Below, one piece after another: positions 5,180 through 46,350 of a stretch of DNA of 47,042 nucleotides; the stretch's first letter is position 1; the number at the start of each line of letters is the position of its first letter. Origin of the DNA: Planctomycetota bacterium (GTDB lineage Bacteria > Planctomycetota > UBA8742 > UBA2392); NCBI GenBank assembly GCA_019912315.1, contig JAIOJA010000068.1, forward strand, positions 1-47,042, written 5' to 3'. The translations under genes were made by a program, and so were the position numbers. The notes under the pieces are model-generated. The model ran no database searches, was not told where the DNA came from, and worked only from the letters and a program-made list of their open reading frames with translations.

Positions 5180-7243
5180 ATGCCCCTCGCCACCGACTGT
5201 CCCCATTGCCTCAAAGAGTTTACGCTTCCGGACCATCTGTTCGGCAAGCGCATCAAGTGTAAGAGTTGTGGTGGAGTGTTTCGCGTGGGCGGTGCTTCCG
5301 CGCCGCCGACCGCCGATGACTTTGACGCACTCGACGCCGTAAACCAGACACAGGTTGATGCCCCGGCGATGGAGGATATCGGCGCGCCGACCCGTGCCAT
5401 GCCCGGGCGTCGTGGCGATGACTTCGCGACACAGCCGCCTGCTGCGAACGACGAGTTTGCCACCCAGTGGGGCGGGCAACCGGACGACTTCGCCACCGAA
5501 GACATGCACGCGGATGACTTTCAGACCGCCGTACCGCCTACCGGGGCCGTCGATTTCAGCGAGACCGTCCTGCCCGCCGCCGGCTCCTTGGGTGAAGACA
5601 CGGTTGGCGATACCTGGGGAGATACCGCTGCCGGTGATACGCAGGACGGACACTTCGCCGATTCCAGCGATACCGCGCACGACCTGCAGGATGACACCGC
5701 CGTCGACTACATTGACCCGACAACCGGTGATACGGTTGCGGACTACCTGCCCGATGATTCCAGCGACACGGCCGTTGATTACATTCCGAGCGACGAAGAA
5801 ATTGCCGCCGCGCAGGCCGAAGCCGGCGGTTTCGTTGAGGACGTAGTTGAGGACGTAGAAGTTGAGGACGTCGCGGTCGAGGATGTGGAAGTCACAAGCG
5901 ATGCTCCGAAACTTCCGGGCAAAGGGGCCAAGCTGCCCGGCAAAGGCGCGAAGCTGCCGGGCAAGGGTTCGCTCCCCGGCAAGGGCGCGAAACTTCCGGG
6001 CAAGGCCTCGTTGCCAGGCAAGGGTGACCTTCCCAAGGGTACGGCCAAGATTGACAAGGGCGTGAGCCCCCCGAAGGGAAAGAAGCTACCCGCTAAGGCC
6101 GGCAAACCCGGTGAGATTGGCGCGGCCAAGGAAAAGAAAAAGGGCGGCGGGCTGCTGGTGAAGGCGTTGCTGCTGTTCCTGCTGCTGGACCTGGTGGTGT
6201 TCGCGCTGCTGATTTACGTGCCGCAGGTGCGTGATGGCGTTGGTCTTGCCGGTACGCCTTGGTTGAACGACATCGCGAGTACCGTGGGCGGACACGTGGA
6301 CGGCGCGGATACTCCAGCGCCGCCGGACAACACGACCCCGCCAGACGACAATCCCCCGGACGATCCGCCGACGCCACCGGATGATCCACCGACGCCACCG
6401 GACGATCCGCCGACGCCGCCGCCGGACGACCCGCCGTTGCCGCCACCGGACGATCCACCGTTGCCGCCGCCGGACGATCCACCGATGCCGCCGCCGGATG
6501 ATCCACCGATGCCGCCGCCGGATGATCCACCCGCGCTGCCGCCGGATGATCCACCCGCGCTGCCCGACCCGGACCCCCAGCCGGATACAGAGCCGGGGCC
6601 GGACCCGTTCGAGTCGAAGTGGCCAAAGTATGAGCGACCGAAGCCCAAGCCGGCCGAGCCGGGCAGGGCCAGCGATTTCTTTGACGAAGACTTCGACAAC
6701 CCGCGCTATGAGTGGGATTGGCTGCCCAGCGGCGTGAAGTACGTCAAGGGCGTACCGGGCGTACCGGGCGCGCTCGAAGTCAGCGCCGGCAAGATGTTCC
6801 ACATGTCGGGCAATGTTGCCGCCGCCGAGGTGCGCCTGGAGATATGGCGTGACATGGATGCGCCGGATCTCAAGGTCACGGGTGGCAAGGCCAAGGGCTA
6901 TGAAGTGCACTTCCGCTTCATCGACCTTGCAAACTATCACGCGTTGCAGATTCGCGGCGACGGCTACTACCGTATCGTGCGTGTAAGCGGTGGACAGACG
7001 AAGACACTGGTGGGGGACTCAAGCGGCGACTACCTGCCCATCCCGCAGTGGGACCGCGATTCCCTGTACGACACAGTGGTGCTGACGTACCAGGGCGATA
7101 GCGTCGCAGCCAGCTTCAACGGGCGCCGTCTCGCCACCACTGCAAAGGGCACGGCGGGCGCCGGCAAAGTCGGCATCCGCAGCACTAACGGACTCAAGTT
7201 TGCCGTCGAGAAGTTCAGCGTCGACGAAGTGGAAGGCGAGTAA
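5180..7243 (+). CDS. Zinc-ribbon, single-pass membrane protein with proline-rich stalk and C-terminal beta domain
   Basis: This 687-residue modular protein has a good AGGAGG site upstream. Residues 1-36 are a CxxC...CxxC zinc ribbon of the MJ0042/prokaryotic finger type (CPHC, CKSC). Residues ~40-235 are acidic and Asp/Thr-rich (SDTAVDY repeats, EDVEVEDV). Residues ~242-290 are five or six basic LPGKG repeats. A transmembrane segment follows at ~327-349. Residues ~379-464 are a DDPPxPP-repeat linker, probably spanning the periplasm. The C-terminal ~190 residues resemble a LamG/DUF1080-type beta sandwich (VKVTGGKAKGYEVHFRF-like strands, then DSVAASFNGRRLATT). Such architecture is common in planctomycetes. 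The function is unknown; an inside-to-outside binding or signalling role is inferred. Confidence 0.75.
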   Translation: MPLATDCPHCLKEFTLPDHLFGKRIKCKSCGGVFRVGGASAPPTADDFDALDAVNQTQVDAPAMEDIGAPTRAMPGRRGDDFATQPPAANDEFATQWGGQPDDFATEDMHADDFQTAVPPTGAVDFSETVLPAAGSLGEDTVGDTWGDTAAGDTQDGHFADSSDTAHDLQDDTAVDYIDPTTGDTVADYLPDDSSDTAVDYIPSDEEIAAAQAEAGGFVEDVVEDVEVEDVAVEDVEVTSDAPKLPGKGAKLPGKGAKLPGKGSLPGKGAKLPGKASLPGKGDLPKGTAKIDKGVSPPKGKKLPAKAGKPGEIGAAKEKKKGGGLLVKALLLFLLLDLVVFALLIYVPQVRDGVGLAGTPWLNDIASTVGGHVDGADTPAPPDNTTPPDDNPPDDPPTPPDDPPTPPDDPPTPPPDDPPLPPPDDPPLPPPDDPPMPPPDDPPMPPPDDPPALPPDDPPALPDPDPQPDTEPGPDPFESKWPKYERPKPKPAEPGRASDFFDEDFDNPRYEWDWLPSGVKYVKGVPGVPGALEVSAGKMFHMSGNVAAAEVRLEIWRDMDAPDLKVTGGKAKGYEVHFRFIDLANYHALQIRGDGYYRIVRVSGGQTKTLVGDSSGDYLPIPQWDRDSLYDTVVLTYQGDSVAASFNGRRLATTAKGTAGAGKVGIRSTNGLKFAVEKFSVDEVEGE

Positions 7244-41804: not shown

Positions 41805-42956
41805 TCAACTATAGTGGAGCGCTTCCGGAATCTTCATTCGAGCCCCCTTGATGGCAGGAAAGAGAGCGCCAAAGATTCCGATCACGAGGGCGACAACCAA
41901 ACCCGCCAGCAGGGCCCACTCGTCCACATTGATGCTGAACGCACCCTTGTTGAACTTGGTTGAAATCCCGTTGGCCTGCCACGCCAGTGCCATGCCGATT
42001 GCGCCACCCATCAAGGCGAGAGTGGTCGACTCCAGGACAAACGACTGCACGATGTCTTTGGGTGGGTATCCGAGAGTCTTCAGCGTTCCGATCTCACGAA
42101 TACGGCCTAGCACGCTGGCGTACATCGTGTTCATACCTGACACCAGCCCACCGATTGTCGCGATTACCGCCAGGAAGACCGCGAGAAGAATGATGCGTTC
42201 AAAACCTTCGGCAAGGTCACGGTAGTACTCTCGCTCCGCGACTGCTTTCACCTGGATGTCGTTACGGCTGTTCAAGGACTGAATCAGTGTGGGCATCTCG
42301 CCTTCGTGTTCCAGCTTGATCAGCGCGCTCGAATAACTGTCTCGAACGAACACTGCCATCGAGTCATTGAGGTCCATCAGGATTTCGCTGTCCATGGCGG
42401 TCCCGCTGGCGTCAAAGCGCCCGACGATTTTCCAGGTATCGTTCGAGATAACGATCTCATTGCCGACCACCAGCGACTCGCGCGGAACTCCAAGCGCCGT
42501 ATGTGTCAGCGATCCAACTACGAGGTTTCGCCCCGGGCTTGGCGGCTCACCCTCTACCATTCTCAGCAGCGTGTTAACTTCGAACAATTTCTCGCTGACG
42601 CCGCGCACTACGCCGGGGCGGTTCTCGTGCTCGCCTACGCTTACACGCGTGTCCTGCAAAGTTTCGGGCGAGATCAAAGGCTCGCCCAGCGCGTTCTTGC
42701 GGATCTGCGGCAGACCCTTCAGCAGATTGTAATCTGTTTTGGAGATCTTGCTGAAAGTCTGGTTCGCGGCTTTTCGGTCGATCACGATAATGTTGTCGGG
42801 GGAGCCCGAATTGCGCGCGGAATTCAGCAACCCACCAGCGAAGGCGAACATCACCACACTGACTGCGACCACCAGCACGACCGCGAACAGCGTAAGCAAC
42901 GTGCGCACTTTACGGCGCATCAGGTTGCGAATGCTGTAGCGCAGCGGAATCTTCAT
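41805..42956 (-). CDS. ABC transporter permease (MacB/FtsX family), second subunit
   Basis: This 383-residue protein has the MacB_PCD/FtsX pattern: one N-terminal helix (TLLTLFAVVLVVAVSVVMFA), a ~230-residue extracytoplasmic domain, then three C-terminal helices (LAVFLAVIATIGGLVSGMNT; LRTL-like REIGTLKTLGYPPKDI; ALLAGLVVALVIGIFGALF). It ends the efflux operon and starts immediately after the TAA of the Sec permease. It contains no in-frame UGA, in contrast with its partner. The two permeases probably form a heterodimer with the ATPase at 44096. Confidence 0.88.
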   Translation of the reverse strand: MKIPLRYSIRNLMRRKVRTLLTLFAVVLVVAVSVVMFAFAGGLLNSARNSGSPDNIIVIDRKAANQTFSKISKTDYNLLKGLPQIRKNALGEPLISPETLQDTRVSVGEHENRPGVVRGVSEKLFEVNTLLRMVEGEPPSPGRNLVVGSLTHTALGVPRESLVVGNEIVISNDTWKIVGRFDASGTAMDSEILMDLNDSMAVFVRDSYSSALIKLEHEGEMPTLIQSLNSRNDIQVKAVAEREYYRDLAEGFERIILLAVFLAVIATIGGLVSGMNTMYASVLGRIREIGTLKTLGYPPKDIVQSFVLESTTLALMGGAIGMALAWQANGISTKFNKGAFSINVDEWALLAGLVVALVIGIFGALFPAIKGARMKIPEALHYS

Positions 42957-44099
42957 TTAGTCCGCACTCCCGATGGCATCGACCATCTTCATGCGTGAGG
43001 CGCGGAAGCCCGGCCACATGCTGCCGACTACACCAATTACCAGGGAGACCCCCAACGCACTTGCGATCACATCCCAAGGCATGGAAACCGCCAGGTTCAG
43101 GCTGCGCGCCTGCACCGTGACGTCCTGAAGCTGCAGCACCAGCCAGGCCGAGCACGTACCCATGACTCCGCCAAGCAGGCAAATCATGGCGGCCTCGGCA
43201 ACCACCATCAGCATGACCATCCAGCGCTTGAAGCCAAGAGTTCGCAACATGCCGATCTGGCGCGTACGGTCGCGCACGGACATCGAGATGGTGTTGCCGA
43301 CCGACACAAAGACGACAATCAAAGTGATCAGAATGACCAGCGATGACAGGCTGATCATGTCATTCAAGTCTTCGATCATGCCGCTGACATAGGCGGTCTC
43401 GGCTTGGGTACTGGTACCGACCGGGCCGTCCATCGCGTCGATTTCGCCAGCCACAACGTCGGCCTTCGCGCCCTGTTTCAGCTTGACCATGATGGAGTTC
43501 GCTTTACCGCGGCGGTCGTACTGATCCTGGACGTACTCGATGTCGGCGATGATGGTGTTGTCCTGCTCCTCGTTGCCACTGAAGTAGATGCCGCTGACGG
43601 TCATGATGATGCCGAGCTGGTCGCGCAGATCGACGCTATCGCCGTGTTTCCAACCCTTGCGTTTGGCGATGCTGGCACCGAGTAACGCGCCATCACGTGT
43701 CGCCCGGAATTCGTCGATGCTGCCCGACGTGAGTTTGTAGTCGCGGAACATCTGAAACTTCGTCTTGTCGATGCCGTGGACAATGACCTTGTCCGGCTCG
43801 AAACTTCAGCAACTTGTGGTGGAAATGTAGACCGGCATGGCGTCCTCAACCTGAGGATTCTCAGCGACCTTCCGGGCATAGCTGTCCGGAAGCTCGCTCT
43901 GCGTCTGTCACCACGTGTTCTGCTCAAGCATGATCAGGTTGTTGTTTTCGCCCGCCCGGGTGACCACGCCCCGCATGGTGCTTTGCATACTCTGAAAAAA
44001 CGCGAACACGAACACGGCCACGCTCACACCCAGTACCGTCAGCCCCGCGCGCAGCTTGTTGTTCTTCATGTTCTTGAAAGCAAGCTTCAGAATTTTCAT
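42957..44099 (-). CDS. ABC transporter permease (MacB/FtsX family) with two UGA-encoded selenocysteines, U64 and C97-U98
   Basis: Read from the ATG at 44099 through TGAs at 43908-43910 and 43806-43808, the frame gives a full 380-residue permease. It has a TM helix at ~15-40 ([20 protein letters not shown]), an extracytoplasmic domain, and C-terminal helices ([38 protein letters not shown]). U64 sits in [15 protein letters not shown]98 follows Cys97 in [19 protein letters not shown]. Reading stops at either UGA would leave a 63-residue stub and lose the C-terminal helices. The frame is uninterrupted otherwise, its start overlaps the ATPase stop (ATGA), and a canonical SECIS follows U98. The three redox residues in the outer domain could bind metal or switch by oxidation. 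Function is inferred. Confidence 0.85.
43773..43797 (-). promoter_or_regulatory. Predicted SECIS element for U98 of the permease
   Basis: GGACAA (43794-43789) and UUGUCC (43783-43778) pair perfectly around the loop GGUCA, and outer GCC/GGC pairs (43797-43795 with 43775-43773) extend the stem past a small bulge. The loop begins 17 nt after the UGA. GGUC is the SelB-recognised loop of the E. coli fdhF SECIS. Confidence 0.85.
43864..43897 (-). promoter_or_regulatory. Possible SECIS-like hairpin for U64 of the permease
   Basis: CUUCCGG (43892-43886) pairs with CCGGAAG (43875-43869), and GCGA/UCGC (43897-43894 with 43867-43864) extend the stem past a G-G mismatch. It starts 10 nt after the UGA. 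The 10-nt loop (ACAGCUAUGC) lacks GGU, so it is less canonical than the one for U98. Confidence 0.45.
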
Positions 44100-44812
44100 A
44101 CGGCCTCCTCGAGTGTTTCCGTAATGGCGTGTCTGTCGTGCAGGACACCCTTATCAAGGTGAAGCTGCGTTCCCGCCACCGCTGCGGCGTGCGGGTCGTG
44201 GGTGACAAGAATGATGGTTTTGTTGAAGCGTTCGTTCAGTTGCTTCAGGATGTCCAGCACGTCCTCCTCACTTTGCGCATCGAGGTTGCCCGTGGGTTCA
44301 TCCGCCATGATGATCTTTGGGTCCGTCACGATGGCGCGTGCAATCGCGACACGTTGCTGTTGGCCGCCCGAAAGCTGCCGGGGGTAGTGCTTCATGCGGT
44401 CGTTGAGGCCGACCGCCGTCAGCGCCATCTCAGCCTGCTGTCTGCGCCGACGCCCACTGAGCGGCAGCAGCAGCAGCGGCAACTCGACGTTCTCCAGCGC
44501 CGTCAGCACGGGCAGTAGATTGAACTGCTGAAAGATGTACCCGATGTTGCGGTTGCGCCAGCGCGCCAGCTTGGAATCACTGAGCTTGCTGATGTCAATG
44601 CCGTCAACCGTAACCGTTCCGGCAGACGCGTTGTCTATGCCCGCGATGATGTTCATCAACGTGGATTTGCCGGACCCAGATGGGCCCATCAGCGAAAGGA
44701 ACTCACCCTCGGCGATGTCCAGATTCAGATCATTCAACGGAGTCACTTTCGTCTCGCCGGTGTCGTAGGTCTTGCGCAGTCCTCGCACTTCCACGAGCTT
44801 CTTTGCCATCAT
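44096..44812 (-). CDS. ABC transporter ATPase (MacB/LolD type)
   Basis: This 238-residue ATPase has Walker A (GPSGSGKST near residue 43), Q-loop ([20 protein letters not shown]), the signature [15 protein letters not shown], Walker B ([12 protein letters not shown]) and the H-loop (LVTHDPHAA). It powers the two permeases. Its start overlaps the adaptor's stop (ATGATGA), and its own TGA stop overlaps the Sec permease start. This shows that UGA works as a normal stop here. A second ATG one codon later is possible. Confidence 0.93.
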
Positions 44813-46350
44813 TGCCGTGCCTCCAGCTCAAGTCGGACAGGGGCTCCGTCATCCAGCAACGCAAGCCCGGTGATGGCAACCATGTCGCCCTGCGAGACAC
44901 CTGCGACCACTTTGAACCCCTGGCTCAGCTCTTCTCCGAGTTCGACTTCACGAAGTTCTGCCAAGGCGCCACGAATCCGGAACACGTAACTCTTTCCGTC
45001 GCGTTTGTGAATCGCGGCGGGAGGCAACACCAGCGGCAACGCCTCATTCTGTTCCAGTTCGGGTCTGGGGTGAAAGTCTACGGTGACCGTCATGTCCTTG
45101 CGCAGGCTCTCGTCGGGTTCGTCGATACTCACGATTGCTCGTATCGTGTCGCGCGCGAGGTTGGCCTGCGGGTTGATTCGAATGACTCGACCCGTGTAGG
45201 GCTTGCCCTTTCGAGCCGCCAACTTGATTGTGCAAGCCTGCCCGACAAACAGGGCCGCGGCCTGTTCCTGGCGCACGTCGACTCGGCACTGCATTGCGCT
45301 CGGGTCATAGAGCGTAAACAACGCCATTTCTTTTTCAGACAGAACGGCGCCCGTGGGTGCGAGAACTTCCAGGATGCGGCCCGATCGCGGGGACTTGACG
45401 GTGCATTGTTCGACGCGCCAGTTTGCCAACTCTTCCGCGTATTCTTCCGCTTCAAGCTGAGCTTTTGCCGCCTCAAGTTCCGCCTTCGCTTGCTGAATGT
45501 CCTCCACTCGTGTGCCCGCCTGAATCAGCTCCAGTTTCCGCTCCGCCTCGGAGAACTCGGTGCGGGCCACTTCAATATCCACTTCTCTGTGCCCGGCCTG
45601 GAGGCGGCGTAGGTCCTGCTTCAGGGACAAGACTCGTTCTTCGGCGCTGCACGCCAGGGACTCGCTCTCTTCAGCCAGCGCAAGGGCAACCTGGTGACTC
45701 TCTGCCAACTTATTCAGCCGATCCGCGCGAGCTCTTTTTTGCACCGCGAGGGCGACCGCTTCCCGAACATTCGCCTCGGCCTTCTGGATGTCTTCCTCGC
45801 GATTCCCGGCGAGTATGCGATCCAGCTTTGCTCTGGCGCTGTCTCTGGTTGCTTTGGCGATCTCAATTTCTTCAGGACGAGAACCGGCGCTGAGCAGCGA
45901 CAAGTGGGCGGTGGCCGCGCTCACCCGGTGCTTGCACGCCGCTACTCGCGCCTCAACTTCCCATAACTCCGTTTCATAAACTTCGCTGTTCACGACGGCC
46001 ACGCGACTGCCACTCTTGACTTCCAGCCCTTCTACGGCAAACGAAGCGTCGACCCGCCCCGGCACCATGGCACTGACCGTGACCGGGTAGGGCCATTGAG
46101 GTTCAATCCACCCACCTGCGGTGAACTCGATCTGCGAGTCAGGGCGAAGATACTCGACGGTATGCGTCGTAACAGCCACCCCGCCGTCAGCGGCACCTTG
46201 CGACTTGTGGACGTACTGGAGGTAGCCGAGCGCGCCCAACACCAGCACCAGCGCAAAGGTCGCGAAGCGCCAGAAACGGGACACTCCGTCTGGCTTGGCA
46301 AAGTCCTCTTCAGGGATGTCCAGTCGCAACATTTCAAGATCGACAGCCAT
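44809..46350 (-). CDS. Membrane-fusion (HlyD/MacA-type) efflux adaptor
   Basis: This 513-residue protein has a short cytoplasmic N-terminus and one transmembrane helix at ~29-46 ([18 protein letters not shown]). A lipoyl-like half ([17 protein letters not shown]) follows, then a long coiled-coil hairpin (~110-300, with [20 protein letters not shown]). The second lipoyl and beta-barrel parts are at [19 protein letters not shown], and the C-terminal domain is at [20 protein letters not shown]. It links the inner-membrane ABC pump to the outer membrane. As first gene of the operon, it is expressed with the ATPase and both permeases. Confidence 0.9.

Follow-up and report, generated by a model that had tools for sequence, protein, structure and literature searches.

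The question raised by this locus is whether a permease gene interrupted by two in-frame TGA codons is nonetheless translated to its end, and with which amino acid at the two sites. The gene, here called PERM1, is the third in a tight four-gene operon ordered adaptor, ATPase, PERM1 and PERM2. It lies in the window, by which we mean the whole 47,042-nt stretch of Planctomycetota DNA that was analysed; the stretch makes up contig C37 of a metagenome-assembled genome (MAG) of 4.01 Mb and 89% completeness. It is very probable that both UGA codons of PERM1, 64 and 98, are decoded as selenocysteine (Sec), judging from the conserved frame, from the fixed positions at which UGA and Cys trade places, from Sec genes that are all present in the genome and from the stem that follows UGA64. 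The features of the locus are as follows:

44809..46350, minus strand: HlyD-type periplasmic adaptor gene, UGA-terminated (Pfam and NCBIfam)
44096..44812, minus strand: ABC ATPase gene, LolD/MacB-type by best scores, which lie below the cut-offs of those families (Pfam and NCBIfam)
42957..44099, minus strand: PERM1, MacB/FtsX-type ABC permease gene, predicted selenoprotein (frame, Pfam and alignment)
43908..43910, minus strand: UGA codon 64 of PERM1, predicted Sec (UGA in 15 and Cys in 29 other aligned genes)
43863..43898, minus strand: SECIS-like stem after UGA64, in which 43898-43886 pairs with 43875-43863 with one mismatch (-24 kcal/mol)
43806..43808, minus strand: UGA codon 98 of PERM1, predicted Sec beside Cys97 (UGA in 9/9 same-family genes that cover the codon)
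43778..43794, minus strand: SECIS-like hairpin after UGA98, GGACAA-GGUCA-UUGUCC (loop 17 nt from the UGA)
41805..42956, minus strand: PERM2, second FtsX/MacB-type permease gene, without in-frame stop or Cys (translation and Pfam)

Translation of PERM1 gives 380 residues followed by TAA, and the only internal stops are the TGAs at codon 64 (NTW-stop-QTQ) and codon 98 (TTSC-stop-SF), which agrees with the single frame broken by just two TGAs of the original prediction. The operon junctions are intact, as had also been claimed: the stop codon of the ATPase gene (TGA, 44098-44096) sits within an ATGA overlap with the PERM1 ATG, and the PERM1 TAA (42959-42957) directly abuts the PERM2 ATG (42956). 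The adaptor gene likewise stops at a TGA (44811-44809). Because the adaptor and ATPase genes both end in TGA, UGA keeps its role as a terminator here, and recoding, if it occurs, has to be confined to particular sites.

PERM1 scores above the Pfam cut-offs for FtsX (PF02687) and MacB_PCD (PF12704), with 74.8 and 67.5 bits, and is predicted to be an exporter subunit; the same two domains are found in PERM2, ABC_tran in the ATPase and HlyD_D23/HlyD_3 in the adaptor. An AlphaFold model made from 27 sequences, with Cys standing in for Sec, has a pLDDT of 87.8 and a pTM of 0.79, and its nearest PDB match is MacB (5gko, E 2e-20, TMq 0.64); other structural matches are LolE, a Streptococcus ABC transporter and the heme exporter HrtBA. 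The stretch 53-240 is predicted by homology to be extracytoplasmic, and Sec64 and Cys97-Sec98 would both be placed in this domain outside the cytoplasmic membrane. In the model, codon 64 follows the strand 54-59 and codons 97-98 follow the strand 84-94 of the same predicted domain, and we infer that the two sites are neighbours in the fold.

The joined PERM1 protein was searched against 60 genomes (its own and relatives), yielding 30 loci; removal of a C-terminal fragment (L025) and two outgroup paralogues (L043 and L045) left 27 subfamily genes. A search of 392 genomes of the phylum added five UGA genes, picked for their UGA, and 13 Cys genes, namely those that were new among the 30 loci listed from that search, which brought the set to 45. 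UGA is borne by 18 of the 45 genes, from 18 genomes of the phylum, a proportion that is not a phylum frequency because five of the genes were chosen for having UGA. All 29 in-frame stops in the set are TGA, at codon 64 in 16 genes, codon 97 in four and codon 98 in nine. Position 64 is Cys in the other 29 genes and position 97 is Cys in the other 41, and so all 45 have Cys or UGA at both positions, while the outgroup genes L043 and L045 have neither; the cysteines that the original prediction had mentioned for related permeases do exist. The combinations encountered are U64/C97-U98 (the family of the window), C64/C97-U98 (L017 and L018), U64/C97, U64/U97 and C64/C97. The matches listed from the 392-genome search include at least 18 genes with in-frame stops, and again every stop is TGA.

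Within the window's own family a close orthologue is present in 10/16 genomes, in one as a fragment (L025); the remaining six, three of them of the same genus, are without one, which may reflect true absence or incomplete MAGs. At 55-66% amino-acid identity, eight same-family genes retain at least one of the two UGAs, and UGA is also present in genes at about 28% identity. Among 260 database proteins matching PERM1, the best 120 were looked at, and 25 of these (P0002-P0026) are full-length. Ten full-length relatives were read: nine combine Cys64 with Cys97, and in the tenth, P0024 (42% identity), Trp64 goes with Cys97-Cys98. The TGG of a Trp codon is one base from TGA. By eye, position 98 is Cys in P0024, P0063 and P0067, so that homologues carry Cys at each of the two positions, 64 and 98, on which the Sec proposal was staked. 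P0063 has Cys97-Cys98, and P0067, which is outside the 45 genes, has an apparent Gly97-Cys98 (also by eye), an exception to Cys or Sec at 97. A further 44 of the best 120 (P0027-P0070) are only 199-295 aa long and 37-91% identical to the C-terminal part of PERM1. Six were read, and the start lies beyond codon 98 in four of them and between codons 64 and 97 in the other two; we infer from this what looks like truncation by gene callers at the UGAs, which suggests that a conserved family is being cut short in annotation.

The sequence downstream of the UGAs evolves as a coding frame. Over codons 99-379, divergence between PERM1 and eight relatives is 0.25-0.34 at codon position 1, 0.17-0.24 at position 2 (the lowest in 8/8 comparisons) and 0.40-0.54 at position 3 (the highest in 8/8), a pattern typical of sequence that is translated. 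More noise is seen in the 33 codons of segment 65-97, with position 3 highest in 7/8 comparisons and position 2 lowest in 4/8.

Could the UGAs nevertheless be true stops in a pseudogene or split gene, from which a 264-residue ATG-started fragment (42957-43751) or nothing at all is made? The short database proteins would fit this picture, gene callers apparently letting such frames end at a stop. Such a fragment lacks TM1 and the start of the extracytoplasmic domain, and it is hard to see under this reading why the UGAs are kept in eight same-family genes and recur at about 28% identity, why relatives have Cys in their place and why TAA and TAG are missing among the 29 stops; we regard it as very improbable. 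Much the same small probability attaches to UGA being read as Trp, or by near-cognate read-through. The Trp64 of P0024 speaks for Trp, but genes without UGA have Cys at 64 in 29/29 cases and at 97 in 41/41, the operon has two genes with UGA as their last codon, and the genome has a complete set of Sec genes including a selD with a UGA in its active-site motif. Sequencing or assembly error, a concern with any window taken from a MAG and one that the original prediction had named, is the least probable of all, its chance being close to nil: one or both UGAs are found in 17 other genomes, and errors in this one MAG do not account for TGAs that recur in others. All three explanations were rejected.

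Sec decoding makes demands on the host, and these are matched by its gene content. SelB and tRNA-Sec would decode both PERM1 UGAs by way of the stems that follow them, and in the adaptor and ATPase genes of the operon the final UGA would go on acting as a stop. The host MAG has a tRNA-Sec (selC; 72.9 bits, anticodon tca according to ARAGORN), selA (553 bits), selB (332 bits) and selD (396 bits), in other words the complete Sec machinery that the original prediction called for. The selD gene (L102, G000:C52:40679-41602) has one in-frame TGA, which falls within HGAGUGCK. This we take to be the SelD active-site motif, and the genome thus appears to have a second, canonical selenoprotein in SelD, itself predicted to contain Sec. 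selA and the tRNA-Sec gene lie within ~2.2 kb on the same strand (G000:C13:24808-26957), with selB and selD on other contigs.

The Sec genes were surveyed in the 60-genome set, the five genomes of L082-L086 being outside it. All 13 genomes with a UGA-bearing permease are over the cut-offs for both selA and selB, compared with 32/47 (selA) and 29/47 (selB) of the genomes without one. The association between selA and the UGA permease (Fisher p 0.026, 60 genomes) is modest because Sec use is common in the phylum; selenoproteins have been reported in Planctomycetes in the available part of an earlier study (PMC4807772). Genomes with the U64/U97 form have extra SelB-like proteins (three over the cut-off in G030; two over and one just under in G051). 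This feature is non-specific, as the Cys-form genomes G038 and G053 have two each.

Bacterial SECIS elements are modelled, in the available part of a 2026 review, with a 3-9 nt loop that has a G in its first two positions and lies 16-37 nt from the UGA, and with a folding energy of <=-7.5 kcal/mol (PMC13188914). Both stems in the window fit the model as given there: that of UGA64 has -24.2 kcal/mol and a GCUA loop ~25 nt downstream, and that of UGA98 has -16.8 kcal/mol and the GGUCA loop at 17 nt. The latter is the stem that the original prediction had pointed out, and it is real in the window; the stronger candidate at UGA64 was overlooked. To put these energies into context, the window has 1,457 TGA trinucleotides on both strands (the two of PERM1 included), and with the loop required 14-37 nt downstream, stems of <=-24.0 kcal/mol occur at 0.27% of them and stems of <=-16 kcal/mol at 9.8%, the median being -10.0. 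The true stops of the adaptor and ATPase genes, which serve as controls within the operon, have stems of -10.9 and -7.0.

Folding energies were also compared with those of random synonymous recodings, giving a z and a p per gene. At codon 64 the UGA genes have a median z of -2.17 (n=16; p<0.05 in 9/16) and the Cys genes one of +0.19 (n=29; p<0.05 in 0/29), a difference with a Mann-Whitney p of 2.3e-4 (2.8e-6 for raw energies), where the rows are related genes and the p values overstate their independence. In six UGA64 genes (L020, L022, L026, L033, L084 and L086) the stem is no stronger than expected from recoding (z -0.48 to +0.70). The UGA64 stem corresponds to columns 13-25 with 36-48 of alignment A4, with one mismatch. 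In seven same-family UGA64 genes 74% of cells are paired in the register i+j=61, against 23-57% when the register is slid, and the pair 21-40 of A4 is seen as GC, CG, UA and UG. The covariation is modest in comparison with shuffles, of which 26/500 reach the score and 45/500 the paired percentage.

At UGA98 the window gene is the only one to pass the synonymous test (z -2.52, p 0.02); the other 8/9 same-family genes are not significant (z -1.06 to +2.17), and no compensated pair was seen in the hairpin. The corresponding test at codon 97 is non-specific, with 4/16 Cys rows at p<0.05; it covered two UGA97 rows, L033, which reached p<0.05, and L040, which fell short, with L084 and L086 outside the test. 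The GGUCA loop at 17 nt is common to L017, L018 and the UGA97 of L033. At 3/22 sites no candidate with a G in the first two loop positions was found. An alternative UGA98 hairpin, GUCCAC-GGN-GUGGAC with its loop at 30 nt, is 90.7% paired across nine sequences with one compensated pair, and was set aside because the conserved protein sequence may explain much of the pairing. Known RNA families yielded just a chance Guanidine-III match at the site (11.6 bits, E 3.9) and none over threshold in the whole window.

What might a Sec-containing permease do? PERM1, the Cys-free PERM2, the ATPase and the HlyD-type adaptor would together make up a MacAB-like pump, in which the Sec/Cys cluster may act as a reactive soft-ligand site that catches a thiol- or selenol-binding substrate for export, candidates being a soft metal, a metalloid or an organometal. 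We favour such substrate capture over a redox switch, tentatively and at slightly less than even chances, because of the adjacent Cys-Sec, the third chalcogen and the metal or metalloid role of listed Sec transporters; most of the Sec transporters in the available part of the review are implicated in metal or metalloid resistance, and CU motifs are tabulated there for SaoC, SaoB, SaoL, HgcA and MbdU (PMC13188914). With Sec decoding unchanged, the Sec/Cys residues could instead form a selenenylsulfide or disulfide that gates or senses, and we hold this redox switch to be a credible rival, if a somewhat doubtful one. It would account for the joint presence of Cys or Sec at 64 and 97 in 45/45 genes and of neither in L043 and L045, both sites do follow strand ends (54-59 and 84-94) of one predicted domain, and the review, in its available part, expects redox functions for most uncharacterised selenoproteins (PMC13188914). 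Against it, Pfam finds no thioredoxin-like domain, UxxC and CxxU motifs are absent from the sites, no obvious thiol-redox partner was seen among 20 neighbours (9 of them without a Pfam match), and Sec98, as a third chalcogen, would be superfluous for a simple switch. A bolder form of the soft-ligand reading is a three-chalcogen selenolate-thiolate cluster of Sec64, Cys97 and Sec98 in the outer domain, capturing a soft metal or organometal in an ABC export pump; this we consider speculative and rather unlikely. If true, such a pump would depend on selenium for efflux and would owe its form to Sec and Cys having replaced each other repeatedly across Planctomycetota.

The neighbourhood was searched for clues to a substrate by comparing 20 flanking ORFs of 12 loci with Pfam: nine had no match, the rest were mixed, and the sole informative neighbour was an OEP gene downstream of the operon in L083, a candidate outer-membrane factor for a tripartite pump of the MacAB-TolC kind. 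These neighbours point to no substrate and do not settle the choice between ligand site and redox switch. Like PERM2, the ATPase of the window operon has no Cys, and the adaptor has Cys373, which is kept in 8/8 same-family adaptors as opposed to 2/9 others. It could be a potential partner for the Sec site of PERM1.

Among the closest known systems are the MacB-type permeases (MacB, LolC/E, HrtB and YbbP), which PERM1 resembles in having FtsX and MacB_PCD domains above cut-off, in its MacB-like fold and in the ATPase and HlyD-type adaptor encoded in its operon. The window differs from MacB-type systems in its separate ATPase gene and its two permeases, and in the Cys/Sec pair of the outer domain. 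The MacB macrolide exporter proper (NF007826) was rejected, with 43.4 bits against an equivalog cut-off of 966 and an ATPase that is separate rather than fused. SaoP membership was also dismissed, since NF040733 is absent from the nine NCBIfam matches of PERM1 (P0001) at E <= 0.001. SaoP probably belongs to another permease type.

The review counts 119 selenoprotein families or subfamilies, of which, in its available part, one is an ABC permease, SaoP (PMC13188914). The original statement that no described selenocysteine ABC permease is known has to be qualified, as SaoP (NF040733) is listed as a predicted selenoprotein. PERM1 and SaoP are alike as ABC permeases predicted to contain Sec, with one Sec listed for SaoP and two in PERM1. 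In the available part of the same catalogue, the SO_0444 family Cu/Zn efflux transporter and a Sec-containing cation ATPase are export proteins with a predicted Sec near Cys (UxC, UxxC), belonging to other families going by their tabulated domain ids, and SaoC, SaoB, SaoL, HgcA and MbdU share the adjacent Cys-Sec of PERM1 97-98 and none is listed as a MacB/FtsX permease (PMC13188914). No MacB, FtsX or LolC-type selenoprotein was found in what is available of the 119-family catalogue, no MacB/FtsX-type selenoprotein or Sec ABC exporter was found in the open-access literature, and the word 'permease' is absent from the main text of PMC1794560 and PMC12013277. The PERM1 family seems not to have been listed among selenoproteins before, and it is unusual for Sec to be placed, twice over, in a polytopic exporter subunit.

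The history of the sites can be read from a tree of 47 genes, outgroups included, in which position 64 must have switched between U and C three times or more, the starred branches forcing three. UGA64 genes are at the base of both large clades, making it possible that Sec was ancestral at 64 and was later replaced by Cys. In L017 and L018, Sec seems to have given way to Cys at 64 inside the genus of the window, provided that the drawn rooting of the tree is right. The resulting natural series of CC, UC, CCU, UCU and UU forms makes it possible to test directly what a transporter gains from having Sec instead of Cys.

Elsewhere in the same 47-kb stretch, positions 663-1394 are occupied by an ORF that, by its sequence, presumably resembles a REP-associated (Y1) transposase, and the translation of 5180-7243 shows long repeats of LPGKG and of Pro-Asp as well as a zinc-ribbon-like motif at its N terminus.
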